Positions 1-23,692 of a stretch of DNA of 24,945 bases are shown here, piece after piece. Every line of letters begins with the position of its first letter. Positions within the stretch are counted from its first letter, which is position 1. Position numbers and translations under genes: made by a program. The stretch is taken from positions 1-24,945 of the IMG/VR virus record IMGVR_UViG_3300012008_000028; one strand, given 5' to 3'. The notes beneath the pieces were generated by a model that saw only the letters and a list, made by a program, of their open reading frames with translations, was not told the origin of the DNA and did not search any database. Source of the DNA: a virus.

Positions 1-359
1 TCGGCTAGGGAGACGGCACCAATACTCGCAGGCGTAGCAGTTAGCACGCCTACGGCATTCAGGATGCTTACATTGTCCGGCTTCACACCACCCAACACTG
101 TCGCTGTCGCCGTTGGCAGACGGACCGCCCAACCGTCCGTCCCGCAGGTGTACACCGTGTTGGGCGTGATCGCCGTGTTCTGGTAGGGCTGGCCATAGTT
201 GGCGACGGTGCAGGCGATGCTCAAACTCATTGGCGTGCCCGCGCCCGTGATCCGAGGCCAGTTGATCCGCGTGGCCGGATCGACCTGCGTCTGCGCTCCC
301 GCCACAGCAGCGAAGAGCAGGGCAACCGAGACAATGCAATGCTTGAGATGCTGCTTCAT
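1..359 (-). CDS. Fibre-like protein with signal peptide (partial, runs off left edge)
   Basis: An open minus-strand frame starts at ATG 359..357, two bases after the tail-fibre stop, and is still open at position 1, so only about 119 N-terminal residues are visible. The N-terminus looks like a cleavable signal peptide: a basic stretch (MKQHLKH), a hydrophobic core (IVSVALLFAAVAG) and an AQT cleavage region. The next part is rich in Thr/Asn/Gly and contains LGGVKPDNVSIL, a pattern common in shafts of phage and prophage tail fibres and related secreted adhesins. It is probably translationally coupled to the fibre gene, since no strong ribosome binding site is visible. A signal peptide is unusual for a virion protein. 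It may be a receptor-binding or accessory adhesin, or a host-type secreted protein carried by the phage. The function is inferred only from the shaft-like motif. Confidence 0.7.
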   Translation of the reverse strand, partial: MKQHLKHCIVSVALLFAAVAGAQTQVDPATRINWPRITGAGTPMSLSIACTVANYGQPYQNTAITPNTVYTCGTDGWAVRLPTATATVLGGVKPDNVSILNAVGVLTATPASIGAVSLA

Positions 360-360
360 T

Positions 361-2049
361 TCAGTTCACCCATTCCGTCCAGTACGTAAGTGTGGGAACC
401 GGGCTGCTGCCCGGAATGTCATCCCATGTGAAGTTGTAGTAGTAGCCAGGGGGAACAACAAACGTCACTCCCGTTTGGCCAGTCGAGTTCGTGACAGAAT
501 TTGCTGCGACCGTCTGAGCGCCAGCTCCGGACGCTGGGAGCGCCGCAGAGGTGCTCGCCACATTCCCATAGCAGTCGACGCCGTTCGCCACGCCGCTGCT
601 AATCGACGCGCTTGCGGATACCGTGAGACGATATCCGCTCGTGTTGTGGTAGACCGTATTGAAGGAGCGGGCACCCGTCACAATGCTCATCGTCGTGGCC
701 GGCGGAGCAAACGGAGTGCTCGGCACAAAGACTCCGCCCACATTGGTCAGCACCTGCCCCGCCGTGCCGGGTGCGGCAAGTGTGATCGACCCCGCAGTCA
801 GCAGCCCACTCACGACCTCAGAGGCGGCCGCAATCGACCCCACGCTCGCAGTCGGGGCGGTGAGCTCGCCGCTTAAGCTCACCGATACCCCTGTAATCGG
901 ACCGGTGGCGTTGATGGCGGCGGCGGCAACGTTAGCCAGCGTGGTGATCGCCTCGGCGAAGAAGGCTCCATTGGCACTGACCAGCGGCCCGGATGCGCGG
1001 AGCTTGCCCGTCACGGCGTCGAAGCCGAAGCACTGCAGACTCACCGCGTAGGGGAGCGGATCAGGCTGCGCCGCACCCGCCATGATGGCAGGGAATGTCA
1101 CGGTGCGGCCGCCCACCGCGTCCTGCTGGTAGTACATGGCGATGGGTTGCCCCGGCGCCAGACCCCACACCCCGGCAATGGTCAGATTGCCCGTCATGCC
1201 CGCAAGGTAGAACCCGTCCGCGAGGCCCGCGTTCAGCGTCACGGACGCCGCATACGGCACCACCACCACGTACGGCGTGTTGCTCCCCGGAGTAAAGCCG
1301 GTGGCAACGATCGAGCGGAACGTGTAAATATCCCCGGCCGGCGAAGGTGCCGTCAGCGTGATGGACCCGGAGGCTGTTTCGATGTAGTCGACGGTATTCG
1401 TCAGCGTCAACCCACCGGAAACGACAAACAGGTTGTTCGCTCCCGGCGTGTAGGGTGGCGTCGCAAACACCGTCTGCCCCGCCGTGGAGGTGGTCTCGAT
1501 GTACCCGAAGCTGAGCGTTTGAGGCGATGGCTGGTTGGGGGCGGAGATGACCGTCTGCGGCACTCCGTTGGCATCGAAGGACAGATACATCCCAGCCCGC
1601 TGCGCCACCGGCGGAACTTGCGTGCTGATGCCGGAGGGATCGGTGATCGGGAAGTTGATCGTCCGGTTGACCCGCTCCTGCATTTGCTGGATCAGGATGG
1701 TCAGCAGGTCGAACTCGGTCGTAACCACCTCAGGGTAAAATCCTCCCTGATTGGTCAGCTCGGTGCCCTGCAACTCCGGAATGGCGGACGAGAGGACGAG
1801 CGAGTATCCCACCTGCAACGCGACCTGGAGCAGGGTGATGGTGCCGCCGGGGTTGTAGTCCTGGTTGGCGTTCAACGTAACGGAGTAGTCGGTATTCAGG
1901 ACCAGCGTCGACTGAATGCCGAGTGCCAGGTTGAGCGTGACAACCAGCACATCCGAAGGCTGGAAGACTTTGAAAGGGAAAGGAAACGTGGAGACGGTTC
2001 CCGAGCCAGCGAACGGCCCCGCCCTTCGCACTGTGGACGATATCGACAT
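361..2049 (-). CDS. Phage tail fibre protein
   Basis: A 562-residue protein. The first ~130 residues match the virion-anchoring domain of podovirus fibres (T7 gp17 N-terminal type): an FPFPFKVF segment, a hydrophobic strand (DVLVVTL), 'LVLNTDYSVT', 'GGTITL', and then 'TELTNQGGFYPE' followed by a helix of the 'LLTILIQQMQERVNR' kind. The middle is low-complexity Ala/Thr/Gly shaft. From about residue 453 the C-terminus has the common fibre-tip pattern SFNTVYHNTSGY ... VPPGYYY ... WTEWVN. The start at 2049 is supported by GGAGGG about 7 bases upstream. The gene would bind the tail to the host surface receptor. It lies at the end of the structural block, next to a second fibre-like gene. I see no C-type-lectin variable region of the kind used in retroelement-diversified fibres. 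Confidence 0.92.
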   Translation of the reverse strand: MSISSTVRRAGPFAGSGTVSTFPFPFKVFQPSDVLVVTLNLALGIQSTLVLNTDYSVTLNANQDYNPGGTITLLQVALQVGYSLVLSSAIPELQGTELTNQGGFYPEVVTTEFDLLTILIQQMQERVNRTINFPITDPSGISTQVPPVAQRAGMYLSFDANGVPQTVISAPNQPSPQTLSFGYIETTSTAGQTVFATPPYTPGANNLFVVSGGLTLTNTVDYIETASGSITLTAPSPAGDIYTFRSIVATGFTPGSNTPYVVVVPYAASVTLNAGLADGFYLAGMTGNLTIAGVWGLAPGQPIAMYYQQDAVGGRTVTFPAIMAGAAQPDPLPYAVSLQCFGFDAVTGKLRASGPLVSANGAFFAEAITTLANVAAAAINATGPITGVSVSLSGELTAPTASVGSIAAASEVVSGLLTAGSITLAAPGTAGQVLTNVGGVFVPSTPFAPPATTMSIVTGARSFNTVYHNTSGYRLTVSASASISSGVANGVDCYGNVASTSAALPASGAGAQTVAANSVTNSTGQTGVTFVVPPGYYYNFTWDDIPGSSPVPTLTYWTEWVN

Positions 2050-2089
2050 GCCTTATCCCTCCATTTGAAACTACCGCTCTCCACGGCTG

Positions 2090-2101
2090 GTTATGTATAC
2101 A
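2090..2101 (-). promoter_or_regulatory. Motif copy A: TGTATACATAAC (minus-strand reading)
   Basis: A 12-bp sequence, GTTATGTATACA on the plus strand, found exactly three times in the window and only between genes. This copy lies between the divergent starts of the tail fibre (2049, minus) and the exported-protein cassette (2109 or 2124, plus). Its core TGTATACA is palindromic, so it could act in either direction. It could be a promoter element (TATACAT as a -10-like box) or an operator. No convincing -35 is seen. Confidence 0.55.
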
Positions 2102-2114
2102 CCGCAAGGTGTAT
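2097..2114 (+). promoter_or_regulatory. Perfect 7-bp inverted repeat with GCAA loop at the cassette start
   Basis: ATACACC (2097..2103) and GGTGTAT (2108..2114) are perfect reverse complements around GCAA. In plus-strand RNA this would be a hairpin closed by a GNRA-type tetraloop. It overlaps the last five bases of motif copy A and contains the upstream candidate GTG start at 2109. It could occlude that start, be a protein-binding site, or be chance. A start at GTG 2124 would lie just outside it. Confidence 0.45.
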
Positions 2115-2492
2115 CGTGATTCAGTGAAAACTGCCTTATGCATTCTCGTGCTCATAGTCGCGGTTCTATCGGTTGCGGAGCCTGTCAACGCCGCGACACC
2201 GCATCCCATCAGCATCGCGATCGATCCGCATTCCTCCGGCGAAGCACAGGCCGAGCTGATCACAAACGGGTTTCGCAAGTACTGCCCGGACATCGCCATC
2301 GTTCGCGACGAAGCCGCCGCGCAATACGTGGTCCTTGCCAGCGAATCGAACCCGCTGCGTGGCTTTTTGCTGCACTACTACATCACGGTTTACGACAGGA
2401 AAGGCACCGTCGTATTTAGCGTCGACAAAAACCACGACAAGAGCGCTACCAAAGCAGCCTGCAAATTCATCACCGATGCGGCCCGGGCATGA
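2109..2492 (+). CDS. Small exported protein, first gene of antisense cassette
   Basis: Up to 127 residues from GTG 2109. GTG 2124 gives 122 residues, a cleaner signal peptide beginning MKTALCILVLIV, and an AAGGTG about 12 bases upstream. The hydrophobic segment ends in VNAA, a plausible signal peptidase I site. The mature part is about 100 residues, with two cysteines (KYCPDI and KAACKF), alternating strands, and a C-terminal KFITDAARA helix. I recognise no named domain. It resembles short periplasmic proteins of unknown function in Acidobacteriota, an impression only. It overlaps the next gene by ATGA, so the two form an operon. It is encoded opposite to all neighbouring phage genes, which suggests a separately controlled accessory (moron-type) gene. 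Confidence 0.75.
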   Translation: MYRDSVKTALCILVLIVAVLSVAEPVNAATPHPISIAIDPHSSGEAQAELITNGFRKYCPDIAIVRDEAAAQYVVLASESNPLRGFLLHYYITVYDRKGTVVFSVDKNHDKSATKAACKFITDAARA

Positions 2493-2953
2493 TCGAGAAA
2501 TTCAAGAACGGTTCGCTGGCGCTGGTTGCTGCAGTCTTTTTACCGGCTTCCTGCATCCTTTGCGCGTCGCAATCACCGCATCGATCGGAGACGGTAGCTT
2601 CCGCTGCGTTCCCCGACCTACCGAGCGAGGCGTTTGTTGCGACCTGCACAAGGGTTGACAACCCCACAGATATTCAAAAGGAGGCGGCCGTCGCTTGCGC
2701 GTATTACATGGCTGGAGTGGCCCAGGGGATGCTGCAATACGTAGGGGCGCTCAAACATTTCGGTGTCGATCCCAGGATCAATCTCTGCTTCCCAGCCAAT
2801 ACAGAACCAGGACAGCTCGTGAAAGACGCTGTCGATTACATGAAAAAGTACCCACACATGAAGATATCCGGCGGCGATATGGCCTTTTTGGCAATCTTGT
2901 CTAAATACAGCTGCAGCATCAACGAACCGAAAGACAAACCTTCGCAACCCTAG
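2489..2953 (+). CDS. Exported Rap1a/Tai-family immunity-like protein
   Basis: A 154-residue protein. It begins with a signal peptide (MIEKFKNGSLALVAAVFLP). The mature part has the Rap1a/Tai layout: a first Cys (VATCTR), a second Cys in a helix ahead of a small-residue motif (ACAYYMAGVAQGM), 'INLCFP' followed by 'PGQLVKDAVDYMKKYP', then a terminal helix ending in a fourth Cys (LSKYSC). In this family the four cysteines form disulfides. Characterised members are periplasmic inhibitors of type VI secretion peptidoglycan amidases, and many others are of unknown role. It starts inside the stop of the previous gene (ATGA overlap). Its stop TAG abuts the stop of the opposing giant gene (TAGCTA), leaving no room for a terminator. 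Possible roles are protection of the lysogen from cell-wall hydrolases of rivals, or control of lysis. These are inferences. Confidence 0.8.
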   Translation: MIEKFKNGSLALVAAVFLPASCILCASQSPHRSETVASAAFPDLPSEAFVATCTRVDNPTDIQKEAAVACAYYMAGVAQGMLQYVGALKHFGVDPRINLCFPANTEPGQLVKDAVDYMKKYPHMKISGGDMAFLAILSKYSCSINEPKDKPSQP

Positions 2954-5900
2954 CTACTTGTGCGGTGCTCCTACCACCGCATCCCACGCGTTGGGGTTCT
3001 CGATCTTGCCAGCGTTTGCCTTGCGCACGTAGTGCGTGATCCTGAAGCCCTCGGCAGTCGCCGGGACGCCTGCCGATACCATCGCGGCTTGCAGGGCATC
3101 CAAGCCGATGCCGGTCCAGTCCTTGTCTTCCTTGTCGGATAGCGCTTCCACTCCAGCCTTCACGCCCATGGTAGCTATGTTCGCAATCGGAGAGAACTGC
3201 ACATCGCCCTTCGTCTCGATTGCTTTTGCAACTTGCCCAAGGAGCGGAATCGTTTCTATCGGGAATAGCAGCGCACGATTGGCCGCCCAGCGGCCCCAAC
3301 TCTCTCCCTCCTTGGGCCGTCTGCTTTGGACGAACGCGCCAATGACCGAGGGGATAATGAAGGCCATCGCCGATCCGTACGTGAACTTCCCTGCGCGTGC
3401 GGCAAAACTGCCCTGGTTGGGCGCAGCAGCTTTGTGAATCTGCTCGTCGATCTGGTTGAACTTCAAGTTTTCGAAACCGCCCAGCGTTGTTATCACCTTC
3501 CAGAAGTCGCTATTCCGCATGATCGCGGGAATGTCTTTGGGCGCATTCGATCCAAGGCCCGTCCGCACCGCTCCATCCGCTATGTGCATCGCCTGGTAGT
3601 GCGCCTCGTTCTCGGGGAGATCGACGCGCTCCTTCAGCGCTTTCTGGTAGGCCGCATCCCAAAAGGGGAAGGACAGCATGTGGTCCATGAATTGCAGCGG
3701 CATCATCCCGGCTGCGCCCAGCTTCTTCCAGGCACCCTCCTGCGAAGTCCCATTGTGAAGGCTCTGCTGATAGTCCCGGTCAAGATTGTCGCCCCTGAAG
3801 CGCATTTCATTGGGCGAAGCGTCCCGAATCTCTTGCGAAATTTCGAGTGGGTGAGCAAGGAACTTCACAAACGATGACGACCATTCCCGAGGAGAAACAT
3901 GATTGAACATGGCGGTGGCGTGGGTAATTTGCAGCAGGGTAGTAACCGGGTTCAAGGACAGAGACGCCTTGACGAGGTTCGTTCGCAACATCCGCAGCCC
4001 CGCCGAACCATCCTTCATCCCCTGTACAGCGCTTCCATTTTTGTCATTGATCAGCGTTCGCGCCCAGGGCATGAACTTTTCTTCGTGGGCCGGGCCCAGC
4101 GTCTCGCGGAGCGTATCTCGAATCCCCTGGTCCATCAGCAGTTTGTTGAGCACGTGAATCACCTGGCGGTGAGTGATGTCCTTCACGACCTTCGCCACAT
4201 GCTGAGTCAGTGTCTGTTCGTAATCGAACCGCAGCGGGCCGCCGTATCCCGTCCGCGCCTTCATATTATTTCGAGAGGTAGTCGCCCGCGTGTATCCGCC
4301 CTCCACCAGGTTCTGCACCCTGGTTCCCGCATCAGCTTCGGCGCCGCGCTTGGAGAACCGTGTGTCCATGTCAACCGGGTAGTATCCACCGTCCAGGTGC
4401 ATCATCGTGCCATCGGCTGTCTTCACATCGAGCGGGACGTGTGTGACCATGACTGGCGGTAATCCGGTTTCGCTCTTCTCCAGGTCGGACTGTGCCTGCC
4501 CGAGGGGCTTCAGCATGTCCCACTTGTCCTGAATGAACTGCCACTCTTCGCGGGTCAGCATTCCGTCCTTGATCTTGTCGACCAGGGACGGGTCGAATCC
4601 GCGATTCGTGAAATTGTGGTCCTGAAGCGAATTCGTCAGACGGTCAAGGTTTGATTCATTGCCCATGTTCAGCGCCATCGAAATAATCTCGTGACGAGAG
4701 GTAGGCTCTGTGACCCCTTCGATCGATATCTTTTTGAGCATATTCATGCGCTGCTCCGGCGTCATCTTTTCCAGAGAATCGCCAGCGTCCTTCGTCACCT
4801 GCGCATGCAGGCCGTATTCCTTACCCTCCGCGTCAGCCGCCAGGTTCCACAGGTTGTCGTGCCAGGGCCCAGTCTTGCCGCCATCCAGCCGGTTGATCAG
4901 GAATTCCATGCGCGTCATCATGGCTTCCCCGCTTTGGAGGTAGCCTTTGCCCGTCTGCACCGCAGTCTTGTTGCGCTCGAATAACGGCTCCGGATGCGAC
5001 CGCAGCGACTCCCGCGCCCGCACCTGCATCGCCTTCGACGCGATGTCGTACTCAATCTTTTTCCCGTCGATTACCTCATGGAGATCCTTATAGGCCAGCG
5101 TCTTGATGTTGGTCAGTGCGTCGTGGAGCTGGTGCAGCTCGCTCAGTGGGATGGTGCGATAGTTGGCCGTCCGATTCTCGTTGTACATCGCATCGCTGAT
5201 GGCCGGTTCTCTGTCCATCTGCTCGTACTGATAGTTTGCCCACTCGGCGAGCGACATGGTGGTCGGCGCGGTCCGTGGCATGAACGCCATTTCGTACCGC
5301 GCCATCAGCTTGTTGAACTGCGGCAGATTCTCAGGGCCAGACTTGCCCAGGTTCTGCTGCACCGTCTTCCCCTGTGCCCGCTTCCTGAAGGGCTCGAATT
5401 GCCGGGTCACGTAATCCTGCTGTTGCTGCTCTGCGCGAAATAAGAAATGGTTCAGCAGACCCTTGTGCTTCGCCTCGGCGGCGGCTGCATAGTCGCCTTT
5501 CGCGAAAGCCTCAAGGGATTCACGCTGATACTTCCGGCTGGCATCAAGTTTGCGCATCGGCTGCAGGTCGGCGGCAGACTTCTTCTGAGTTGCCTCCTCC
5601 GCCCGTTGCCGGTAGGCCTCGAGCGGCGCGGCCTCAATCACGGATTGTATCCCCTGCTTCTGACCTGTCTTCTGCGCTTGCAGCTCCGCAACCTTGCGCT
5701 TCAGCGCGACCAACTCTGCATGCTCGATCTTCGCGCGGTTGTCATTCTCCAACGCCAGCCGCGCCTGATCATCCAGGGTGCCGTCGTAGCGGATGTCGCC
5801 ATGCTTGGCCGTCATGTACGCGCGGGTGGCTGTGTCGATCGCCTCACTGCGCCGCGGCGCCGCCTCCAGCGCCTTCATCATCTCTTCGCCAGAGCCGAAG

Positions 5901-8900
5901 CCGTGGATCTCCGCAGCCGTTTCCGCGTCCGTTCCACCCTCGGTGCGATAGATTCCCCGATGCAGCTCCTGCAACGCCTTCACCCGCTCCTCGCCAAACT
6001 GCTCGACCAGCGCAGCGCGGTTCAGGGTCAGCGGCGTGCCGTCTTCGAGTTCGCCCTTGCGCAGCGACTTGATTGCCTTGTACACAGGCTGCGCGTCGAC
6101 AGTGTCGGTCACACCCTGGCGAACGTTCTTCTCTTCGTCGCGCCACGCCTCGGAGCGATCGCGCACCGCCGCCTCGTTCAAGCGGCCGAGGATGTAGGCC
6201 TTCGCCTCTGCGACGGTCGTCTGATGGTCTTCCGCATGTTGTTTGAACTGCTCTTCCGTCCATCCAGCTTCCTCGGGAGTCTTGAATTGTTGCGGCCCAG
6301 CTTCGTCCGCCGCCCGGTTGACGCCATCCTCGGCGGCATACATCCGGTCGAAGACATCGCGAATCTCGGGAGACAGTTCTACGCCCAGGGAAGAGGCTTT
6401 CTTGTAGACCGAACCCAACCAGACGGCGAAGCGCTGAAACGTCCCTTTGAGGCCGGGGCTGGGAGCTTTGCCTTCGCGGAGGTACTGCTCGTTGGCCTGC
6501 GCCCACTTCTCATGCTGCTCGGTAGTGAGCGGTTCGCCTTCCTTGGCGTCGAGGAAGTGCAGCACCTTGTTGTAATCGCCCTTCAGCGTTTTGCTGGAAC
6601 CCTCACGGCTGGCAAGATCGCGCAGCATGAACAGGTAGGCGTGCGCAGGCTCATGGACGAACGTCGACAGATCGCCAATCTTCGTCTTGCCAATCTCAAA
6701 CGATCCATCCGGGAGCGTGCGGAACCATCCCCGTGGCTGGCCGGAGGCTGGCTTGACAGCGTTCGCAGCCAGCTTGGCGTGTTCTGCGTCGACGCGGACG
6801 CGCGCGGCATCGACTCTTGCGGAGAGTTTATAGTCTGCCGGGTTTTCCATCGCTTCGTTGTAGAGTTTGCTGTGCTCGGCCTGAGCTGCCCGCAGGGCTG
6901 CCGTGCGGGGATCTGCATCGCGCAGGCTTTGGTACTTCTCCTGCGCGGAGAGCCATACCTCATCATCCCCGCGCGCCGCCGCCTCGATGGCCGTCCGCGC
7001 AAGGTGGTCTTGCTCGGCCGTGAGCGGAACACCAGTCGCCGCCGCCCGCTCCCGTAACGTGACGAGGGTTGGGTGATCTTCTCCCGCCGGCGTAGCGGGA
7101 AGGTTGTGGAACCATTCGGGAATTTGCGACTGGAAGAGGGTAGGATTGTCGCCGGTGCCGTGAAACAGAGGCGAGTTCCGCTCCATTTCGCCAGCGGCCT
7201 TGCTGATATCGCCCGTGGGAGAGCGCATCTGCTCTTCCATCCCCTGCTGTTGCAGGTCAGCCCTGGCTTGGTCGCCCTCGGCAACCATCGACTCCATGCC
7301 GGGAAATATACGGTCGTCGCTTACTTTCCGTTGGAAGAGGGGGTCTTGCTGGCTGGAGGCTTCAGCTTGTGCAGCTTTAGAAACTGGCTTATCACCCGAT
7401 CCTGCTGCTCCGGGGACAACTTTAGAGAGTGCTTCGCGGATGCTTGTGTAGGCTCGCTGCTTGATTTCATTTGCGTTCGCTCCCTTTTGTGCCAGCTCCT
7501 TCGCTGCGCTGTTCAGTATATCGTCAACCGGGCCACTGCGCGTACTCTCATGGTCGTATAACATCTGCGCTTGTTCCGCGTTGGCAGCGATCTCCGCGTT
7601 CTTCTTCGCGTTGATCTTCTGGCCCTTGACCTTTCCCAGCACTTCAGCCTTGCCAGCGTCCGCAACGCCACTGAAGGTGCGCCGCTCGGTGGCGATCTTC
7701 TCGCGGATCGAACTCGACACCTCTGCTTTTTCAAGCGCGAGGTTCTGAGTCATCTCCTGCATCCCAAAGAGATTTTCCTGCGTCTCGGTATGCTGGGGCG
7801 CTCCCTTCACCATGCGCGCCAGCTCTTCGACCGTATCGTCTGAGACCCGCTTGCCCTTCGACTCCGCCTTCTGGATGAGCTTTAGCAGCGCTTCCTGGTC
7901 GGCGGGGTCTGCGCTTGCGTTGCCGATGGCGACTCCACGGCCCTCGCGTATCTTCCCGCTGACCACCTGATCGAAGATGCTTGGGTCCAGCTTCGCAAGC
8001 GCGGTACCCTTTGAGGCTGTTGCTTCGCCCATAGAAATACCCAGGCCGTCCAGACGTTCCGGGGTGATACCGGAATCACGGAAGAACTTCGCTGCATCCA
8101 TCGCGGTCCCGCGGCCTTCGGCAATGTTCTGCAAAGCTCCCACGGCGCGGGCTTCTTCGGCGGTGGGAACGTCGATGTTCTTTGTCCAGAGGCTATCGAC
8201 GCCGCTTTCCTTCGCTAGCGTTGCGCGGTGGTGACCGTTGACTGCGTAGGTTTTGCCGTCCTCTGGGTCTTTCCATACACTGAGCAGTCCCGCCAGGTCC
8301 TCGTTCCACTTGCGGCCCTTCAAGAGATTGGTGACGCCGCCCGCGTCCGTGTTCATCTTGAATTGGAACCGCTTCGGGTCCATCTCAATGTCTGAGACCT
8401 TCGTGCGCTGTACGTTGTCCTCTGGTGTCGCTTCCCGTTCGACGGGGATCTCCGGAGTGGGTGCCGGTGCGGGAGCAGACTCAGCCGGTGCGCTTGCAAC
8501 CTCTGGGGCTTCGCCCACGGTCACTTTCGGGTTGTAGAGGTCCAGCAACTCGCTCGGCGTCACCCCAGCCGCTCGCGCCATATTCGTATACACGTTGGCA
8601 TCCTTGGTTGCCAGCGCCTCCGCCACTTCGGGAGTCTCGCCAGCGTCCACGTAGCGTCCGCGCAGGCTCTCTTTCACCTCTGCATATTCAGGAGTCGCCG
8701 CCGTCTCCGCCTGCGCCGCCGCCATGTCCGCCTGCAGCTTCTCCGTCCCACCACTGGCTTCCCAATCGGTCAGCTCCTGACGGCCTTGCTCAAACTGCGT
8801 TGGAGTCAAGTTGGTGGAGGGGTCTACAACGTGAGGCAAGAGAGCTTTCTGGTGCGCTTCGTCAAGCTGCGAAAGGAAACCAGCCTTTGGAACCTCAACC

Positions 8901-10318
8901 TCGCCGCCCGACAGGTGCGCTTCAGCGTAGTTCGTCGATCCAAGGCTCGCTGCGATCGCTTGCGGATCCTCTCCCTGGCCACTGAAGTAATAATTGAACT
9001 CGTCGACGGGGATACGCAGACTCGGACCCACGCCGGCGGCTGCTTTGATGGCCTCGCCAAACTGGTCGGGAGCGCGTGCCTTCAGTTCGGAACCGTTAGC
9101 AGCATCGACCGCTTCCGCCAGATTCGCGTGGAACTGGCCCAGGCCGAGGTGCATCCCTCCCTGAATCGCCGCACCCTGCCCCGCCGCCATCAGAGCGCCC
9201 TTGCTCCATGGCTGGCCGGTAACGATGTTGCTCCCAACCTTCGCCGATCCGCCCATCACCGCGCCCGTGCCCACTGAGGACAGCAGCGGGTTATCTTTCA
9301 GCCCCGGAATCATGTCGGTAAACCCTGCCAGCACGTTGCCGGGAAGGTTGATACCAAACGTCCTGTTTGCCGCCAGTCGCGCCGCGTCATCACCCCCGCC
9401 AGCACCAGCAACGTCAGTGTAGGCCGCGCCGCCCTGCTGGGCGCTGAACGTCGCACCGACACTCAACGCGGTCGCCACCTTGGCAGCCTTTTCGCTCCAT
9501 CCAAACGTCCGCGCAGCCCACCCCACCGCACTCGCTGCGCCCATGCCAACCGCCATCGACGCCAGCAAAGGAGCCACCTGGTCCATCCCGGTACTCTTCG
9601 CATAGTCTGCAACCCCGGCATTCGGGTCATTCGCAAAGACGTTTTCTGGCTTCAGACCGGATTCGATGCTCTGCAGCAGGTTCTGCCGCGTAGGTCCAGC
9701 ACCATGCCATCCGGCCATCGAAGCCACATCGCCAGCTGTTCCCACCGTTCCGCCCGCTGCTGAGATCGCCATGCGTGTGAGCGGGTACTCGTAGAGATTT
9801 TGCTTGACCGCATCCCAGGCATTGCTGACAGAGCCCTTGAGGGACTCCCACGCGCTCGGAGTGTATACGCTCACCTGGTCCATCTTGCGTACATTCTGCT
9901 CAATCCCGCCCAGCCGCTGAATCTCAGGCACGCCGGACACTGCCGCATTGTCTGGGTTCGAAGCCCACGCAGTTGTCTTCGGGTTATCCGCAGCGAACTT
10001 GTTGTAGTCGATCGATTTCTGGTCGACGGACTGCTTGAGTTGCGTCTGGTAGCCCTGCTGCTGTAGTTGCGGAGAAACTCCCGTCTGGGCCTTGAGTTGG
10101 AGCTGTTTCGCGTACTGGTCTGGATCTTGCGTCGTCGCGTAGGCTACCGACTGTTGCAGGTCCTGAGCGGGATTCGGCTGGGGAGGCGGAGGGAACGCCC
10201 TCTGAATCGCAGCATCGACATCTTGATCCTGCGGATTGGCGCTAGGTAATAAGTCCGCAGATCCGCTCGTCATCTGGTCAACTTGATCTTGCGTCAGTAA
10301 TCCATGCTTCTGCGGCAT
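2954..10318 (-). CDS. Giant internal virion / polyvalent protein with ddrB-ParB and peptidase-like domains
   Basis: A 2454-residue protein, the largest here. The N-terminus is Gln/Pro-rich, then about residues 180-400 hold several Gly/Ala-rich hydrophobic segments that could insert in membranes. Around residues 645-860 is a ddrB-type ParB domain: RFQFKMNTDAGGVT, the GHHR motif at 695-698, AEGRGTAMDAAKFF, and GRGVAIG. A zinc-peptidase-like HEPAH (HExxH) lies at 1222-1226, followed by PSPGLKGTFQRF. A charged helical region with coiled-coil character comes near 1530. The C-terminal part (about 2100-2350) resembles the large polyvalent-associated helical domain (LASLSLNP-like segment), with a hydrophobic stretch near 2320. 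Such proteins are thought to be packaged and ejected with the DNA, like T7 gp16. GGGG sits about 7 bases before the start. Fold calls are from memory. Catalytic activity is untested. Confidence 0.85.
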   Translation of the reverse strand: MPQKHGLLTQDQVDQMTSGSADLLPSANPQDQDVDAAIQRAFPPPPQPNPAQDLQQSVAYATTQDPDQYAKQLQLKAQTGVSPQLQQQGYQTQLKQSVDQKSIDYNKFAADNPKTTAWASNPDNAAVSGVPEIQRLGGIEQNVRKMDQVSVYTPSAWESLKGSVSNAWDAVKQNLYEYPLTRMAISAAGGTVGTAGDVASMAGWHGAGPTRQNLLQSIESGLKPENVFANDPNAGVADYAKSTGMDQVAPLLASMAVGMGAASAVGWAARTFGWSEKAAKVATALSVGATFSAQQGGAAYTDVAGAGGGDDAARLAANRTFGINLPGNVLAGFTDMIPGLKDNPLLSSVGTGAVMGGSAKVGSNIVTGQPWSKGALMAAGQGAAIQGGMHLGLGQFHANLAEAVDAANGSELKARAPDQFGEAIKAAAGVGPSLRIPVDEFNYYFSGQGEDPQAIAASLGSTNYAEAHLSGGEVEVPKAGFLSQLDEAHQKALLPHVVDPSTNLTPTQFEQGRQELTDWEASGGTEKLQADMAAAQAETAATPEYAEVKESLRGRYVDAGETPEVAEALATKDANVYTNMARAAGVTPSELLDLYNPKVTVGEAPEVASAPAESAPAPAPTPEIPVEREATPEDNVQRTKVSDIEMDPKRFQFKMNTDAGGVTNLLKGRKWNEDLAGLLSVWKDPEDGKTYAVNGHHRATLAKESGVDSLWTKNIDVPTAEEARAVGALQNIAEGRGTAMDAAKFFRDSGITPERLDGLGISMGEATASKGTALAKLDPSIFDQVVSGKIREGRGVAIGNASADPADQEALLKLIQKAESKGKRVSDDTVEELARMVKGAPQHTETQENLFGMQEMTQNLALEKAEVSSSIREKIATERRTFSGVADAGKAEVLGKVKGQKINAKKNAEIAANAEQAQMLYDHESTRSGPVDDILNSAAKELAQKGANANEIKQRAYTSIREALSKVVPGAAGSGDKPVSKAAQAEASSQQDPLFQRKVSDDRIFPGMESMVAEGDQARADLQQQGMEEQMRSPTGDISKAAGEMERNSPLFHGTGDNPTLFQSQIPEWFHNLPATPAGEDHPTLVTLRERAAATGVPLTAEQDHLARTAIEAAARGDDEVWLSAQEKYQSLRDADPRTAALRAAQAEHSKLYNEAMENPADYKLSARVDAARVRVDAEHAKLAANAVKPASGQPRGWFRTLPDGSFEIGKTKIGDLSTFVHEPAHAYLFMLRDLASREGSSKTLKGDYNKVLHFLDAKEGEPLTTEQHEKWAQANEQYLREGKAPSPGLKGTFQRFAVWLGSVYKKASSLGVELSPEIRDVFDRMYAAEDGVNRAADEAGPQQFKTPEEAGWTEEQFKQHAEDHQTTVAEAKAYILGRLNEAAVRDRSEAWRDEEKNVRQGVTDTVDAQPVYKAIKSLRKGELEDGTPLTLNRAALVEQFGEERVKALQELHRGIYRTEGGTDAETAAEIHGFGSGEEMMKALEAAPRRSEAIDTATRAYMTAKHGDIRYDGTLDDQARLALENDNRAKIEHAELVALKRKVAELQAQKTGQKQGIQSVIEAAPLEAYRQRAEEATQKKSAADLQPMRKLDASRKYQRESLEAFAKGDYAAAAEAKHKGLLNHFLFRAEQQQQDYVTRQFEPFRKRAQGKTVQQNLGKSGPENLPQFNKLMARYEMAFMPRTAPTTMSLAEWANYQYEQMDREPAISDAMYNENRTANYRTIPLSELHQLHDALTNIKTLAYKDLHEVIDGKKIEYDIASKAMQVRARESLRSHPEPLFERNKTAVQTGKGYLQSGEAMMTRMEFLINRLDGGKTGPWHDNLWNLAADAEGKEYGLHAQVTKDAGDSLEKMTPEQRMNMLKKISIEGVTEPTSRHEIISMALNMGNESNLDRLTNSLQDHNFTNRGFDPSLVDKIKDGMLTREEWQFIQDKWDMLKPLGQAQSDLEKSETGLPPVMVTHVPLDVKTADGTMMHLDGGYYPVDMDTRFSKRGAEADAGTRVQNLVEGGYTRATTSRNNMKARTGYGGPLRFDYEQTLTQHVAKVVKDITHRQVIHVLNKLLMDQGIRDTLRETLGPAHEEKFMPWARTLINDKNGSAVQGMKDGSAGLRMLRTNLVKASLSLNPVTTLLQITHATAMFNHVSPREWSSSFVKFLAHPLEISQEIRDASPNEMRFRGDNLDRDYQQSLHNGTSQEGAWKKLGAAGMMPLQFMDHMLSFPFWDAAYQKALKERVDLPENEAHYQAMHIADGAVRTGLGSNAPKDIPAIMRNSDFWKVITTLGGFENLKFNQIDEQIHKAAAPNQGSFAARAGKFTYGSAMAFIIPSVIGAFVQSRRPKEGESWGRWAANRALLFPIETIPLLGQVAKAIETKGDVQFSPIANIATMGVKAGVEALSDKEDKDWTGIGLDALQAAMVSAGVPATAEGFRITHYVRKANAGKIENPNAWDAVVGAPHK

Positions 10319-10328: not shown

Positions 10329-12641
10329 CTACTGCTTGCTAAACTTGCGCCAATTCTGTCCGTTTTGAGTTTGGAGCCAAGCCGATGCGATGTGGCTCTG
10401 TGTCGCAGAAATCCCAGCCCTTGCCAATCCCTCCGTGACGCTCGCAGCGTCTTCTGGAGTGATGTGCCCAACGGGGACATTCACGGTTTTTCCGTCAGGG
10501 GTTTGGACGGGCTCGTATCCCTGGTCCATGTTGGAAGCCGTGGCATCCGGGAGGTTCACAGCCTTAGCAGAGTTTTTCCAGAAGATACCGCTTGGCTGAG
10601 GAACCATTATCGTATTGCCGATAAGAACGTCGTTTATCCCCTTCGTCATCTCCGCCGGCGTGAGTTGTTGCCCCTTCGCATTTTTCAGAGCGGTAAGGTT
10701 TAGCTGGATTTGGTTGTGGAGGGGGAGGAAGAGCTTCTGGTTTACCATTTTAGTAGTGACACTCTGACCGTCCGTGTTGATCAATCTCTGGTAGCCCGCC
10801 GCCGTAAAGGCCTGGTCCATTAGGTCTTTCGGAATCGACACCTGCTCCGTTTGTTTGCCCGTGGATTTTCCGTAGGCAGCGGTGAACTCCGGCGCCGTCA
10901 GATCCTTGCCCCGAGCGATCACATAGGCTGGAGATGCATCTGGGTGTGTTGCAAGGTCCACCAGCGCTTGCAGATGTTCCGGAGAGAGCATCTGCACTTG
11001 CGCAGCATAGCTCGCATCCTCCCGCGCTTGTGACATCCTCTGCCGCGCCTGTGCGGCAGGAATCGCCATCAATTGAGCTGCCTTCTCCGGGTCGTTTTGT
11101 TCCATCGTGGCCCACTGCGAAGGTGTCAGCGCATCGTTGCTGTACCTTGGAGCTCCGTTAGGGCCAGCACTGTTGATACCGTGCTGCATGAACGCATCCT
11201 GCAGCGGCTGCACGGTCAGCTGCTTATTCTCCGCGTCCTGCCGGAAGTTGACCTTCTGCTGGCTGTCCACGTACGTTGCCATCTGCGCTTTCATCTGCGG
11301 GTCGTAGCTGGAGTTGTTGATCTGGTCGATGACCGTCTTCGCCATCGTCGGATCAGCGAACTTCGTAAGGTCTACCTTCGGAAGAACCTGCGTGGTCGGA
11401 TCGACAGCCTTCCCATCCTTTCCGGCCATGGAGTAATCGAGGCCACCCTTGGCTGTCAACCCAATCGGCTGCTGACCCTGCATCACCGAATCTCCCACCT
11501 TGTAATTCACGGCCGAGAGGTTTCCGTACTGCGTCGTCGAACCGTCCGAGTGGGCGATCTCGACCGTGTAGGGATCGCCGGGCTTATCCTGGGTGACGCT
11601 GCTCACCTTACCATCCGCTGCCGCGTTGACCGCGGTGTTTGCCGGGACAGTGAAGGTCTGACTGCCATCCTCGTTCTTGTTCATCGTGTACGAACCGCCC
11701 TTGATGGGGAGCTGGGGATTGATTCCCGTCGGCTGGCCGTTCGCCGTGCGCAGCGCGTTCGAGATCAACTGGTTCGATACGTCCTTGACGGTCTCCACGT
11801 CCGTGTTGCGCTTGATGGCGCTACCCAGCATCTCCGCCGTTCGCTGGTCGATGTGTCCCTGCGCCAACTCGCTCTCGTAGAACGACTGCGCTCCCTGGTA
11901 GTTATGGTTGTCCAGCATCTTCGAGATGACGCCCTGCGCAATGCCTGTCGTGACTTCCTTGGCCGCTTCCACCCCTTGCGGGCTGTCCGGGCTGGCTCCC
12001 GTCGCGATGAAGAGAGCGTGCTGCTTCTGCTGGATAGCCTGATTGCTGAAGGTGTAGAAGTTGCCAGTTTTGTCGCCATTCACATCCGTTGCGCCGATGC
12101 TGTCGGGGTTGCTGATGGCGGACTGCGCGTAGCTGTTGGCGCTGTCGCTGGACGCCTGCGCCGAGTAGAGGGCGTTCTGCTGGAAGTGATGATCGGCCAT
12201 CACGGTGCCGAAGTTTGTGAGGTGCGCCGTGGTCACACGGTTGTACATCATCTTCTGGAAGTTGTTGTCGAGCCCATCCAGCCCCTGCTGCTTGATCTTC
12301 GCCAGCGCGGACGTGGCGTCACCAAACCCATTGATCGCCGCCTGCCCTCGGGTGTTCAGGTAGCCGGGATTGTCAGCCGTGCCATCGCCATGGACAACCT
12401 GCTGCGCCTGCTGCATGAAATTCGTCACCGCAGACTTGGTTCGCGCATCGTCGAGCTGCCACTGGATGCGCTCCCCGATGCTGTCGAGGGTCGATCCGGC
12501 CTTGCTGACCGCCTCGCCCATCTGCTCCTGCTGCTGAGGAGCAGCATTTCTCATGGCGTCGACGCCGCCGGCGGTGAGGGCGGTCTGTGGATCGGGGCTA
12601 AGCAGCGTGCTTGGCGCGAACGTATCGGGGATCTGCGGCAT
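10329..12641 (-). CDS. Internal virion protein with degenerate M23-like domain
   Basis: 770 residues from ATG 12641, chosen because GGGAGG lies upstream and the ATG overlaps the previous stop as TAATG. A longer frame to 12719 would run deep into the previous gene. It occupies the T7 gp15-like position of the ejection complex, between the gp14-like and giant proteins. It is largely helical and Gln/Asn-rich. About residues 310-430 follow the LytM/M23 peptidase pattern (VPANTAVNAAADGKV, VEIAHSDGSTTQYGNLS, VGDSVMQGQQPIGLT). However, the HxGxD segment is missing, YAHLS is YGNLS, and the position of HLHFE reads LDYSM before DGKAVDP. The zinc ligands therefore appear lost and the domain is probably structural or substrate-binding. 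The role in DNA ejection is inferred from order and size. Confidence 0.85.
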   Translation of the reverse strand: MPQIPDTFAPSTLLSPDPQTALTAGGVDAMRNAAPQQQEQMGEAVSKAGSTLDSIGERIQWQLDDARTKSAVTNFMQQAQQVVHGDGTADNPGYLNTRGQAAINGFGDATSALAKIKQQGLDGLDNNFQKMMYNRVTTAHLTNFGTVMADHHFQQNALYSAQASSDSANSYAQSAISNPDSIGATDVNGDKTGNFYTFSNQAIQQKQHALFIATGASPDSPQGVEAAKEVTTGIAQGVISKMLDNHNYQGAQSFYESELAQGHIDQRTAEMLGSAIKRNTDVETVKDVSNQLISNALRTANGQPTGINPQLPIKGGSYTMNKNEDGSQTFTVPANTAVNAAADGKVSSVTQDKPGDPYTVEIAHSDGSTTQYGNLSAVNYKVGDSVMQGQQPIGLTAKGGLDYSMAGKDGKAVDPTTQVLPKVDLTKFADPTMAKTVIDQINNSSYDPQMKAQMATYVDSQQKVNFRQDAENKQLTVQPLQDAFMQHGINSAGPNGAPRYSNDALTPSQWATMEQNDPEKAAQLMAIPAAQARQRMSQAREDASYAAQVQMLSPEHLQALVDLATHPDASPAYVIARGKDLTAPEFTAAYGKSTGKQTEQVSIPKDLMDQAFTAAGYQRLINTDGQSVTTKMVNQKLFLPLHNQIQLNLTALKNAKGQQLTPAEMTKGINDVLIGNTIMVPQPSGIFWKNSAKAVNLPDATASNMDQGYEPVQTPDGKTVNVPVGHITPEDAASVTEGLARAGISATQSHIASAWLQTQNGQNWRKFSKQ

Positions 12642-13357
12642 TAGTTGAATCCTCCCATGCTGCCAGGCATGTATCCACCGTTGGCGAGGTACATCTTCAT
12701 GCGTTGACTGTTGTTCCACTGGCTGGCGACAGAGGTTGCGCTGCTGAGCAGGCTGGAGAACCCTGCCGCGAACGGGCTGATCGTGCTCGCGGTCTTGCCC
12801 ATGTTCGCAGCCGACACGCGGTCAAGGTTGGACTGGTTCGTAAAGTTGGTGGACTGCACCCGCGCCGCTGAGGCCTCGCGCACGGCGTTGGAGTTGATGT
12901 CGTAGACGTTGACATCCTTTACGATGTCCATGCTCCCTGCGACGTCCGCCGTCGTGCCTGTACCGCCCCTCAGCCCTCGCGCTGCCATGTTCACCGTCGC
13001 GGCCGCTTTCTGCTGCCCCGCCACCATCGTGGTGCTGAATTCCTTACTCTGACCGGACTTGATATCCGACTCGGCCGCGTACTCGGACTGCCGCGCATTG
13101 ATCGAGGCCATGTCGGCCTGGTAGCCAAGATTCACGGCCTGCGACTTCGCCTGGTACTGCTGCGACTTGGCTGCAAAGTACCCGCCGATGGCCGTGTTGA
13201 TGCCGCCCATCACCTGCATCATCAGCGCAAACGTGCCCGCGCTGGGCATCTTCGACTTGCCCCATGCAGACATATCCATGGGCGGCGCTGTCTGGTACGG
13301 AATCGAGGTGTCCAGGCTCACATCGCCGGTCATCAGAGTACTGAAATCCATTCCCAT
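12641..13357 (-). CDS. Internal virion protein, T7 gp14-like
   Basis: A 238-residue protein. Near residues 45-60 is a hydrophobic Gly-rich segment (LMMQVMGGINTAIGGYFAA), followed by a long Ala/Gln/Ser-rich helix (AKSQQYQAKSQAVNLGYQA). Further on are AARGLRGGTGTT and a C-terminal Ser/Ala/Gly stretch ending YLANGGYMPGSMGG. This is the usual make-up of the small inner-core or ejection protein of T7-like and BPP-1-like phages, which forms a pore in the outer membrane in T7. GGGAGG precedes the start by about 7 bases. Its stop overlaps the start of the 770-residue gene by one base (TAATG), so the two are translationally coupled. Confidence 0.82.
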   Translation of the reverse strand: MGMDFSTLMTGDVSLDTSIPYQTAPPMDMSAWGKSKMPSAGTFALMMQVMGGINTAIGGYFAAKSQQYQAKSQAVNLGYQADMASINARQSEYAAESDIKSGQSKEFSTTMVAGQQKAAATVNMAARGLRGGTGTTADVAGSMDIVKDVNVYDINSNAVREASAARVQSTNFTNQSNLDRVSAANMGKTASTISPFAAGFSSLLSSATSVASQWNNSQRMKMYLANGGYMPGSMGGFN

Positions 13358-13359: not shown

Positions 13360-16300
13360 TTAGCCTCCCACGCTTACTTCAGTCGTGATCCCCACCACCG
13401 TCAAGGGCAGCGGGTTGGACTGGCTGATCGTGATCATGCCATCGGGGTTCCACGATGGCGGAATCGCAAGCTCAATCTCCCGTGTCATCAGGTCCGGCGA
13501 AGTGCCGTACGCCGCAACCGTGCGTTGCTTGTACTCGGTCAGGTTGCCGTCCTTTGGCCCTGCGAAGACGCTGCCGGAAAGAAACAGCTTGATCCAGAGT
13601 TTGTTGATGTTCTTCTGTGTTCCCTGACCGACGCCGGGAACTTGCTGAAGCGCAATAGGCAGGGTGTCAATCTCCGCCGTGTACGGAAGGCCAGCCTGCA
13701 CCACGACGCCGGGCCTTTGCAGAGTAATCGAGCCGTCGGGTTGCACCACGCACTGCGGCTCAACCGCTCCGTCGACCAGCACATTCACCGTCTCACCCAC
13801 CAGCCATGTCAGGCCTTCGATGAGGGGACGCGCCCACGCCCACGTCGCTGTCGCCACCGATTGCAGGTCCACTTCGAGCACCTTGTCGATCACCCCAACA
13901 ACGACCGTCGGGCTGGTGTAGCTCTTGACCGTGAAGCGGTAGAGGATGTTGCCAGTTTGAATCCCTATCGAGTTGAAGATAGGTGCGCCGGTGAGGACAA
14001 CCACGCTGCCGGGATCCGCGGGAACGAAGCTGGCAGCCGAAGCGTACAGGGTCAGCGTATCGGCTGGGCCCCAGGTTATTCCGCCGGTCACAGTCATCGT
14101 GACCGCGGACGCGTTGGTCCCGTCGAAGGTCGCTCCGCAGTCGACGAAGAACGCGCTCTCGGGCCCTCCGTAGAGCCTTGGCCCCATGCGCTCGATGCAG
14201 TTCGCCGTCTGGCCGTTGATCTGCCGCGTGATGACCGCGTACAGACGGTCCTCGGCACCCTCCGCAACCACAGCAACGCTCCGGAAGATGCCGTCTGTTA
14301 CGTGGTGATGCCACGCACCCACCGACTCCTCGGGGATGTAGGTGAAGCCGAGCAGGTTGCCGCTTGAGCTCGGATACCAGACTACCTGCCACGCCGCTTT
14401 CATGAACGCCTGATCGAGGATGCTGAATCCATCGAACAGGTGAGCGGCGCGGAGCGACACATCGCCGGTCACATACCCGCCAATCTGCCACTGGTAGCCC
14501 ATCTCGCGCACATGCCCACCCCGCGCCGCGCAGAACAGAAGCTGGTTATTGACGATCGCAGGAGCGACATTCGTCGCGCCGATATAGCTCTGCGGACGTG
14601 CGCAGATGGTCGAAGGCGTGATCGCGTCGGAGTTGCTTGGGCTCGCGCTGATCTCGCAGGAACTGGCGAGCAGGATCAGCTGGAGCAGCGGAACGACGTG
14701 AAGAATCGTCGACATCTCGCGCGTCGCGATGGCGATGGCGATGCGATCGGTATCCCGCACCGGCAGCGAATAGCTCATATCGCTCTCGGTGCCCGTCTTG
14801 GTCATCCACAGGTTTTGTGGATTGTTGTTCGTGCCCGCGAAGATCCTCCGCTGCTGGTAGTAGCTGACGGCGCCGGGATAGTCCAGGGCAGCGCCGAAGA
14901 CTGGATCGTAGATGTCTGGAGTGATGCTCATATCGACCCCGATGTTGGTATCGGAGAAGGTGAGTTTGGGTGTCTGCCCAATGAAGCCGTACAGGCCATT
15001 TTTCAGCTTATAAACGTAATAGGTGTAGGCACCCGCAACCGCTGCCCAGCTCAGGGTGTTGTAGCTGCCGGTCACATAGAGGTTGTTCAACATGCTGACC
15101 GGCGTCGACGTCGCGCTCTGCTGGATCCCATCCGAGGCGACGGCCGTCACCACGTAGGTGTTGGTGATATCGACGATCTGCGTCCCGTACTGCAGGGTCG
15201 CGCCATAGGTGTAGGAAGCCCAGCCGCTGGCATCGAGTGGGTTGCCGCTGTAGTCCTCCAGGTAGAGCTCATTCGTGATGAGGTGGCCGCCTGTATCAAT
15301 GGGAACCTTGCTGACCATCCAGAAGCCATCGAGCACCCTTGTCCCACCGCCGGTGAGCGTTGCCGTCAGTCCTTTGACGTACACGCCATCGCCGAGAGCC
15401 AGGGAGTGATCTGTTACCGTGGTGATCAGCGGATTCAGCGCAAGAGCGATGCTGGAGATGATGGCCATGTATCCGAGGGTGGGGGCGATAGCAACGCTGG
15501 CCGGGGCACTCAGGGATTGCCCAAACACAATCGAAGAAAACGTCCACAGCGTTGCCCCGTAGCGCCGCAGCTCCGACGGAGGGTAGTTGGGATGGACCAG
15601 GGTCATCACGTCCGCGCTCTGCACGAAGTGGATGTCCATCAGGTCGGCGGCACCGTAGGTGTTGGGGATTTCATAGGTCAGATCGGCTGGAAGAGCGTAC
15701 CAGTAGCTCTGGGTCGCAGGGTCCGTATCGAGGGCAGGCACGAAGGGGCAGGCTTCTGGAGGGACTTGCGGCCGGTAATACGTCGCTCCGCCATAGCTCA
15801 CCATGGCACCGATGGCGTAGTTCGGTTCAACGGCCAGACCGCCATAGGTCGGAGCCGCAGTCACCGCCGCCGCCAATCCCGTCACCGGATCGGTCAGCTC
15901 GAAGGTGTTGGCATCGAGTACCAGGACGTTGTAGGGCCCATATCCCAACCCGGCAGGGTAAGCGACATTATGGCCAACCGGCGCAACCCCTGTGATGGCC
16001 AGGACTACTGAATTCCCGGTGCTGAAAGGATGCCCAGGCCATGTAATAACGGTCGGTGTCGCGATCGTGTAGCTGACGGCGCCCGACGGCACGAACGCCG
16101 GCTGGGTCGCAGAATACTCCAGCGTCTTGCCTTGCGTGTGGAAGCGGAAGTAGCCGGGCCCAATCTCGATCACCATGGTCTGGGTGATCGAGTAGGTGAA
16201 CGGAATCAACCGTGCTGGCCCGTTGTTCTTGGTGGTCTTGACGAACGCGAAGCCGGGCCGCTTCTCCGCGGGACCAAGCGGCGTCACAATCAGGTTCTCA

Positions 16301-16407
16301 ATGCTCGCGGCACCGCTCTGGAACTTGGTGTCATCGATCCGGCCAAACATCTCCGGACTCAGCTCGCCGCCGATGAACGAACCCTTGAATGTTTTCGTGT
16401 TCGCCAT
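13360..16407 (-). CDS. Tail tubular protein B / nozzle protein
   Basis: A 1015-residue protein whose first ~100 residues are diagnostic of podovirus nozzles: FKGSFIGGELSPEMFGRIDD, 'ENLIVTPLGPAEKRPGFAFV', and LIPFTYSITQTMVIEIGPGY. Further nozzle-type segments are DIHFVQSADVMTLVHP, WMTKTGTESDMSYS and CAARGGHVREMGY. In T7 the homologue gp12 forms the hexameric tail nozzle below the gp11 adaptor and holds the fibres. It is longer than T7 gp12 (about 794 residues). Two related-looking beta insertions begin at HPFSTGNSVV (residue 126) and HSLALGDGVYV (residue 334), and a fibronectin-like stretch (TLSWAAVAGAYTYYVYK) follows. The gene directly follows tail tubular protein A, with adjacent stop and start. 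Confidence 0.9.
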   Translation of the reverse strand: MANTKTFKGSFIGGELSPEMFGRIDDTKFQSGAASIENLIVTPLGPAEKRPGFAFVKTTKNNGPARLIPFTYSITQTMVIEIGPGYFRFHTQGKTLEYSATQPAFVPSGAVSYTIATPTVITWPGHPFSTGNSVVLAITGVAPVGHNVAYPAGLGYGPYNVLVLDANTFELTDPVTGLAAAVTAAPTYGGLAVEPNYAIGAMVSYGGATYYRPQVPPEACPFVPALDTDPATQSYWYALPADLTYEIPNTYGAADLMDIHFVQSADVMTLVHPNYPPSELRRYGATLWTFSSIVFGQSLSAPASVAIAPTLGYMAIISSIALALNPLITTVTDHSLALGDGVYVKGLTATLTGGGTRVLDGFWMVSKVPIDTGGHLITNELYLEDYSGNPLDASGWASYTYGATLQYGTQIVDITNTYVVTAVASDGIQQSATSTPVSMLNNLYVTGSYNTLSWAAVAGAYTYYVYKLKNGLYGFIGQTPKLTFSDTNIGVDMSITPDIYDPVFGAALDYPGAVSYYQQRRIFAGTNNNPQNLWMTKTGTESDMSYSLPVRDTDRIAIAIATREMSTILHVVPLLQLILLASSCEISASPSNSDAITPSTICARPQSYIGATNVAPAIVNNQLLFCAARGGHVREMGYQWQIGGYVTGDVSLRAAHLFDGFSILDQAFMKAAWQVVWYPSSSGNLLGFTYIPEESVGAWHHHVTDGIFRSVAVVAEGAEDRLYAVITRQINGQTANCIERMGPRLYGGPESAFFVDCGATFDGTNASAVTMTVTGGITWGPADTLTLYASAASFVPADPGSVVVLTGAPIFNSIGIQTGNILYRFTVKSYTSPTVVVGVIDKVLEVDLQSVATATWAWARPLIEGLTWLVGETVNVLVDGAVEPQCVVQPDGSITLQRPGVVVQAGLPYTAEIDTLPIALQQVPGVGQGTQKNINKLWIKLFLSGSVFAGPKDGNLTEYKQRTVAAYGTSPDLMTREIELAIPPSWNPDGMITISQSNPLPLTVVGITTEVSVGG

Positions 16408-17109: not shown

Positions 17110-17130
17110 GGTTGCCCCTCATAAGAACGA

Positions 17131-17159
17131 AGGGACCGAAGTGTGTGTCTTCGGCCCCT
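17131..17159 (-). terminator. Hairpin upstream of tail genes (weak terminator or processing site)
   Basis: AGGGACCGAAG (17131..17141) pairs with CTTCGGCCCCT (17149..17159) over 10 of 11 positions with a 7-base loop. It lies between the 56-residue gene and the tail adaptor. On the minus strand it is followed by a loosely T-rich stretch (TCGTTCTTAT), not a true U-run, so partial termination or mRNA processing is possible. Confidence 0.45.
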
Positions 17160-17180
17160 CGGGTGAATTGGCTTGGGCGA

Positions 17181-19685: not shown

Positions 19686-20001
19686 TGTGGTTCTCCTTCA
19701 CAAGTGCCGAGTAAAACTCGGGGCAAAATACGTGGATTTGGGCTAAGGTGCGATTCCCGAAGTTCCTGTTTCCCTCGTTGAACGCCATCTGCATGGCATT
19801 GGTGTTGAACGAAAGACGGAAAACTCCAGACTGCTCCAATAACCGCCAAACGATCCGGCGACCACGTTTACTACTCATCAACCACTTCAGATCCAGCTCT
19901 TCGGTCTCGCTCGCCATGCGCTTGCGAAGGTCTACATCTTCCTTGGCAAGTTCTTGGCCGCGCAGGTCGGTAGGATCGTAGGCTTGACTCACATCCTCCA
20001 C
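19651..20001 (-). CDS. Bbp19-like phage protein
   Basis: A 116-residue protein containing the compact signature of the Bbp19-like family: DLKWLMSSKRGRRIVWRLLE, 'SGVFRLSFNTNAMQMAFNEG', NRNFGNRTLAQIHVFCPEFY. Members lie between portal and scaffold/coat genes in BPP-1-like phages and have no assigned biochemical role, so a minor structural or assembly function is likely. The start is uncertain. GTG 20001 gives this length but has no clear ribosome binding site, and an in-frame GTG three codons in (MSQAYDPTDL...) lies only two bases after GGAGG. It begins 20 bp after motif copy B and so may be the first gene of a capsid transcript. Confidence 0.82.
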   Translation of the reverse strand: MEDVSQAYDPTDLRGQELAKEDVDLRKRMASETEELDLKWLMSSKRGRRIVWRLLEQSGVFRLSFNTNAMQMAFNEGNRNFGNRTLAQIHVFCPEFYSALVKENHNGTDGNGHNSK

Positions 20002-20021
20002 ACTAGAACAGACCCGACCGA

Positions 20022-20033
20022 GTTATGTATACA
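20022..20033 (-). promoter_or_regulatory. Motif copy B: TGTATACATAAC (minus-strand reading)
   Basis: An exact second copy of the 12-bp motif, located three bases after the capsid staple gene stop and 20 bp before the Bbp19-like start. It fills a short gap between two otherwise tightly packed minus-strand genes. In the minus reading a GTAC lies 17 bases before TATACAT, as it does at copy C. This position suits a promoter for the scaffold-capsid transcript. Confidence 0.6.
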
Positions 20034-23652: not shown

Positions 23653-23680
23653 CCTCTGAGCTTACGGAGCGATGCGGCAG

Positions 23681-23692
23681 GTTATGTATACA
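23681..23692 (-). promoter_or_regulatory. Motif copy C: TGTATACATAAC (minus-strand reading)
   Basis: The third exact copy of the 12-bp motif. It begins three bases after the terminase stop, the same offset as copy B after its upstream stop, and lies 28 bp before the acetyltransferase start. In minus reading GTAC lies 17 bases before TATACAT. It is a candidate promoter or operator for the acetyltransferase-to-portal block. Confidence 0.6.

Follow-up and report, generated by a model that had tools for sequence, protein, structure and literature searches.

Why does a phage whose virion genes all run in one direction carry, among them, two genes for exported proteins that run in the other? The question is posed by a two-gene cassette in IMG/VR virus record IMGVR_UViG_3300012008_000028, a 24,945-base virus record analysed over its whole length (hereafter, the window). 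The window contains a podophage virion operon, made up of homology-supported genes on the minus strand. The cassette consists of two plus-strand open reading frames (ORFs), ORF1 and ORF2, at the junction between the genes for a giant virion protein and a tail fibre. The evidence leans slightly towards the view that ORF1 and ORF2 are the genes now filling an exchangeable antisense slot of temperate BPP-1/AF-like podophages, and that their envelope products exclude superinfecting phages. The features of the locus are as follows.

361..2049, minus strand: tail fibre gene (phrog_1640 tail protein, E 2.9e-21), one neighbour of the slot
2068..2099, minus strand: copy A of a probable late promoter, for the tail-fibre gene (TATACATAAC-N16-TAGTTT; same leader in relative L169)
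2098..2113, no strand: dyad TACACC-GCAA-GGTGTA, between motif copy A and ORF1, single copy in the window
2109..2492, plus strand: ORF1 (start GTG 2109 or GTG 2124, stop TGA 2492), exported small alpha/beta protein of a family found in Acidobacteriaceae
2489..2492, plus strand: ATGA start/stop overlap of ORF1 and ORF2, read from the sequence
2489..2953, plus strand: ORF2 (ATG 2489 to TAG 2951-2953), exported Rap1a-like protein of 154 amino acids (aa), with a PF18602 match
2954..10318, minus strand: giant virion gene, 2454 aa (phrog_9880, E 2.5e-227), the other neighbour of the slot

This layout agrees with the original prediction, made from the sequence alone. Only the cassette pair is antisense to the phage genes, as every homology-supported phage gene tested (tail fibre, giant virion protein, M23-domain protein, gp14-like protein, tail tubular protein, major capsid and portal) is on the minus strand. 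The two ORFs overlap by ATGA, and by its coordinates the cassette fits between the giant-gene stop and motif copy A. The TAG of ORF2 abuts the giant-gene stop (CTA 2954-2956 as read on the plus strand).

The giant gene and the N-terminus of the fibre served to gather relatives. One or more antisense genes were identified at the exact giant-gene/fibre junction in the window and in L054, L055, L056 (the same record as L005), L057, L059, L066, L163, L167, L169, L172, L173, L174, L177, L178 and L179. Junctions lacking an antisense gene, with gaps of -4 to 109 bp, were found in L060, L064, L162, L182 and prophage L156, which sits within a 570-kb Acidobacteriaceae contig; those of BPP-1, Carin1 and CP2 are likewise empty. 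A further 74 more distant fibre-homologous junctions have no antisense gene (a giant-gene match was detected at 71 of these), and one more distant phage, L181, has a soluble antisense ORF of 107 aa at the junction. A tree built from the C-termini of the giant genes places the window with L059, L167 and L169 (100/99). Antisense genes occupy the junction in 14 members of the clade of 15 that includes the window, the exception being L156. Comparison of the locus in related phages with and without the cassette, as originally proposed, thus yielded both occupied and empty junctions. The original prediction would have been contradicted by relatives that all carry these two genes; none of those examined has both.

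In most slots the cargo encodes a small protein, predicted to have one to three membrane segments, and the sequences fall into two main families plus L178/L179. Two representative slot membrane proteins had no match among 50,697 phage records. Some slots hold more than one gene: L057 and L177 encode an exported protein first (61% identical between them) and then differing membrane proteins, and L163 has a gene for an exported protein ahead of one for a membrane protein. The three nearest relatives of the window (L059, L167 and L169) carry a membrane gene. We found no detectable membrane-family gene in the window, where ORF1 and the Rap1a-like ORF2 stand instead. L169, with its membrane-protein gene, shares with the window the same leader from the late promoter (motif A included) to the fibre start. 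Because nearly all relatives are occupied and the nearest three hold a different gene, replacement is simpler than a one-off insertion, and the window pair probably represents a cassette swap on the window branch, in an old antisense slot. Of the insertion history first proposed, the part that stands is an accessory cassette with an orientation of its own, lying between a stop codon and the promoter of the tail fibre; a one-off insertion into a uniform operon does not, given antisense envelope genes at the junction in nearly all relatives.

Cargo has likely also been transferred between phage lineages, because L066, with a distant giant gene (C-terminal part only ~22% identical), has a slot membrane gene of the same family (7662-8420). 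By eye, ORF1 and the exported first gene of L057/L177 have the same order of elements, with a short, weak match (blastp E 0.002; hhalign probability 51%). A homologue of that first gene also occurs in L192 (3650-4432), where it is co-directional among tail genes; this phage has an 874-aa tape-measure-like protein.

The slot is bounded on one side by a motif, TATACATAAC-N16-TANNNT, which occurs three times in the window, always on the minus strand, and in 0 of 100 shuffles. Its other two copies are:

20000..20031, minus strand: copy B of the probable late promoter, by motif
23659..23690, minus strand: copy C of the probable late promoter, by motif

These two copies had been placed directly after the upstream stop, and each indeed starts 3 bases past a stop codon. 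The general form TAYMCRTAAC occurs in 16 copies in five relatives (L169, L167, L054, L178 and L179), on a single strand per record, and in L169 each of three copies is followed by TAnnnT at an about constant spacing. The combination TAYMCRTAAC-N15/16-TAnnnT is conserved in part of the clade and absent from the other eight relatives tested. The motif is probably an activator-dependent phage late promoter; on this reading, the cassette has a stop codon on one side and the next late promoter on the other.

How might the slot genes be expressed? At seven of seven loci (L055, L056, L057, L172, L173, L174 and L177), an extended -10-like box, GSTARACT, was identified a single time on the antisense strand, 17-40 nt upstream of where the antisense gene starts. 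L167 has a candidate antisense promoter, TTGACA-17-TACATT. Integrases are encoded by all six slot-bearing relatives tested (6/6). Given the antisense boxes in relatives and the integrases, expression of the slot genes in the prophage is likely. The opposite strand and the boxes are in themselves just consistent with expression from the prophage rather than from the late message. In the window, the dyad at 2098..2113 is a possible operator.

Frame length is not proof that ORF1 and ORF2 are genes, because two such long frames were open in ~4% of simulated sequences of the same length and composition. This is the one result in favour of spurious frames or an assembly artefact, an explanation that is hardly credible. 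It is largely refuted by homology (the Pfam match of ORF2 and homologues), and a separately deposited contig in a Granulicella metagenome-assembled genome (MAG), possibly from the same sample, is 99.3% identical over 6.5 kb and has the same arrangement. ORF1 is recognised as a gene by its homologues and third-position-biased substitution. The homologues are 63% identical in a 124-kb phage contig (L003) and 58% identical in an Acidobacteriaceae contig (L007), and differences number 41/30/74 at codon positions 1/2/3 (p 2e-5). Weaker ORF1 relatives were identified in 12 of 200 Acidobacteriaceae genomes, not counting the phage contig itself, and no ORF1 relatives were found in phage records; neither ORF had a convincing match among the 50,697 searched. 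In the unrelated 124-kb phage contig (L002/L003/L004, 4866-6626), the ORF1 homologue and an exported SEL1-repeat gene form a plus-strand pair that adjoins minus-strand genes.

ORF1 encodes 122 aa from GTG 2124, which gives the better signal peptide, or 127 aa from GTG 2109. The prediction of signal peptides on both products is borne out by a single N-terminal hydrophobic stretch after a basic start in each (Kyte-Doolittle 2.45 for ORF1 and 2.17 for ORF2), which is typical of such peptides. The AlphaFold2 (AF2) model of ORF1 (pLDDT 77) aligns with the TolB N-domain/CsgG/PqiC/TraT fold group at Z 6-7 over ~88 residues; as Z stays below 8 and the Foldseek E value exceeds 0.001, this may be a mere common arrangement and implies no function. 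Foldseek with this model returned nothing under E 0.001 in the PDB or viral models, and a sequence search against solved structures found nothing.

ORF2 is recognised as a gene by its Rap1a match and conserved cysteines. It matches Pfam Rap1a (PF18602) with E 1.3e-7 and 32.5 bits, over the curated cut-off of 27.7, in line with its original description as Rap1a/Tai-like. Its mature part keeps cysteines 53, 70, 100 and 142, the four family cysteines in an alignment of acidobacterial Rap1a proteins. In Rap1a, which neutralises a peptidoglycan endopeptidase, a disulfide joins the alpha2-alpha3 loop to the C-terminus (PMC3852654), and C100 and C142 of ORF2 are the counterparts of its cysteines in the acidobacterial alignment, which did not include Serratia Rap1a itself. 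A single-sequence AF2 model of ORF2 has helices only and, at pLDDT 47, is too poor for a structure search (the Rap1a fold is a five-helix dimeric one). No convincing direct relatives of ORF2 were found in viral contigs, phages or plasmids, and no ORF1-like gene was identified within the 1.5-kb flanks of acidobacterial Rap1a genes.

What could such proteins do for a prophage? In P22, the immI/sieA region lies between ejection-protein gene 16 and tailspike gene 9, and a small envelope protein acts on superinfection (PMC8022706, PMC10883804). The slot here lies between the giant-gene stop and the tail-fibre late promoter, so that its cargo interrupts neither. The cargo would have a promoter of its own, active in the prophage while the late operon is silent, and its products would reside in the envelope, as small membrane proteins in most relatives and as two exported proteins in the window. 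There they may stop superinfecting phages from delivering DNA or ejection proteins, as SieA does from the corresponding place in P22. In the window, the place of the usual membrane protein is taken by ORF1, with its TolB/CsgG-like predicted fold, and by a Rap1a-like periplasmic ORF2. Superinfection exclusion, one of three roles originally suggested, is supported as a candidate by a slot position like that in P22, and it is our leading function for the slot, with about an even chance of being right. The mechanism of the window's own pair is less certain than the role of the slot.

Several observations weigh against exclusion by a slot cassette. ORF1 and ORF2 are soluble exported proteins, unlike most slot genes, which encode membrane proteins, so to assign them a function from the position of the slot is to extrapolate. 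No slot membrane protein scores above a curated Pfam cut-off or has a clear PHROGs match, SieA-type families included. Prophage L156, within the clade, manages without any slot gene. No clear sigma-70 promoter could be recognised for ORF1 in the window, a fragment whose 24.9 kb include no integrase.

The pair may instead be a generic moron derived from an acidobacterial host, with no phage-directed role (e.g., an envelope stress function). The ORF1 family is spread through Acidobacteriaceae chromosomes, an ORF1 homologue adjoins the SEL1-repeat gene in the unrelated phage contig, and the Rap1a family occurs in 32 of 200 Acidobacteriaceae genomes. We consider this unlikely, as non-homologous membrane-protein genes share position and orientation across the clade, which suggests a common lysogen role. 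Protection of the lysogen from neighbours' type VI peptidoglycan amidases, as first proposed, would make ORF2 an orphan Rap1a/Tai4-type immunity protein and ORF1 a companion envelope protein. ORF2 resembles Rap1a/Tai4a immunity proteins in its signal-like N-terminus, helices-only model (of low confidence), disulfide-position cysteines and above-cut-off Pfam score, and VipA of the type VI secretion system (T6SS) is present in 39 of the 200 genomes. Unlike those proteins, ORF2 has no adjacent T6SS effector gene, its neighbours being ORF1 and phage virion genes, and its similarity to the acidobacterial Rap1a proteins compared is weak (best identity ~26-27%). The host family is almost without Tae4 (2/200 genomes vs 32/200 for Rap1a), Rap1a and VipA occur together in 8 genomes where 6.2 are expected (p 0.46), and the slot genes of relatives encode membrane proteins rather than immunity proteins. 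The proposal is weakened by these counts and the absent T6SS association, and we judge it quite unlikely.

Two further possibilities involve peptidoglycan enzymes of phages. Because known Rap1a blocks a peptidoglycan endopeptidase (PMC3852654), it is conceivable that ORF2 blocks the wall-cutting enzyme of a superinfecting virion, an example being the counterpart of this virion-operon protein:

10329..12719, minus strand: protein with a peptidase M23 domain (PF01551, E 4.9e-11)

A Rap1a-type protein would then have been recruited to exclusion as a periplasmic inhibitor of a virion peptidoglycan hydrolase, with ORF1 as its envelope partner; this specific version is improbable. The same activity of Rap1a would fit control of host lysis in the lytic cycle, also suggested originally, in which the pair inhibits a peptidoglycan enzyme of the phage or delays lysis, and two holins are annotated in the slot of Pseudomonas phage AF. 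However, those holins are co-directional, whereas the cassette is antisense to the late operon, and L059 has, downstream of the fibre, what look on inspection like endolysin and holin genes of its own, which weakens the idea for the slot generally. We regard lysis control as very improbable.

Portal, capsid, tail tubular and giant virion genes are all present in the window, which places it among BPP-1/AF-like podophages; by tblastn to phages, the giant gene is related to BPP-1 Bbp10 and AF_016 of Pseudomonas phage AF. The whole window had no match to phage records. The clade appears to infect soil Acidobacteria/Acidobacteriota, but assignment of a host by binning is weak because the Granulicella MAG lacks window positions 15000-24945 and has only a 7.8-kb piece of the phage. 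The gene after the tail fibre opens with a signal-peptide-like stretch in three relatives (window 1-358, minus strand; L005 8792-12007; L059 genome 33520-35508), which is odd in a virion protein.

P22 already illustrates the principle of such a slot; what is new, to our knowledge, is the group of phages, the genes that the slot holds and the cassette of two exported proteins. Literature searches on antisense slots in BPP-1-like phages and on orphan T6SS immunity carried by phages yielded nothing relevant here. The slot is a fixed site at which poorly studied soil phages collect envelope genes that are probably expressed in lysogens. Its roughly twenty small proteins form a directly testable set for superinfection exclusion in Acidobacteriota, and the late-promoter motif and antisense promoter boxes provide handles on regulation.

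Among known systems, the BPP-1 and Pseudomonas phage AF podophages have the gene order of the window: wall-cutting virion protein, giant virion protein, tail fibre. Unlike the window, BPP-1, Carin1 and CP2 have only 0-82 bp at the junction, and the slot genes of phage AF are co-directional rather than antisense. The closest analogue is P22 immI/sieA, although no sequence relation to the slot proteins was detected, the host phylum is unrelated and the slot proteins differ. P22 has one membrane protein where the window has two exported proteins, and no antirepressor genes were seen in the slot here. Nevertheless, the window cassette is likewise flanked by a giant virion gene and a fibre, and the highly variable content of P22-type sieA slots among relatives is also found here. 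Such a parallel, with no sequence homology detected, would point to repeated use by temperate podophages of the junction of ejection and receptor-binding genes for exclusion.
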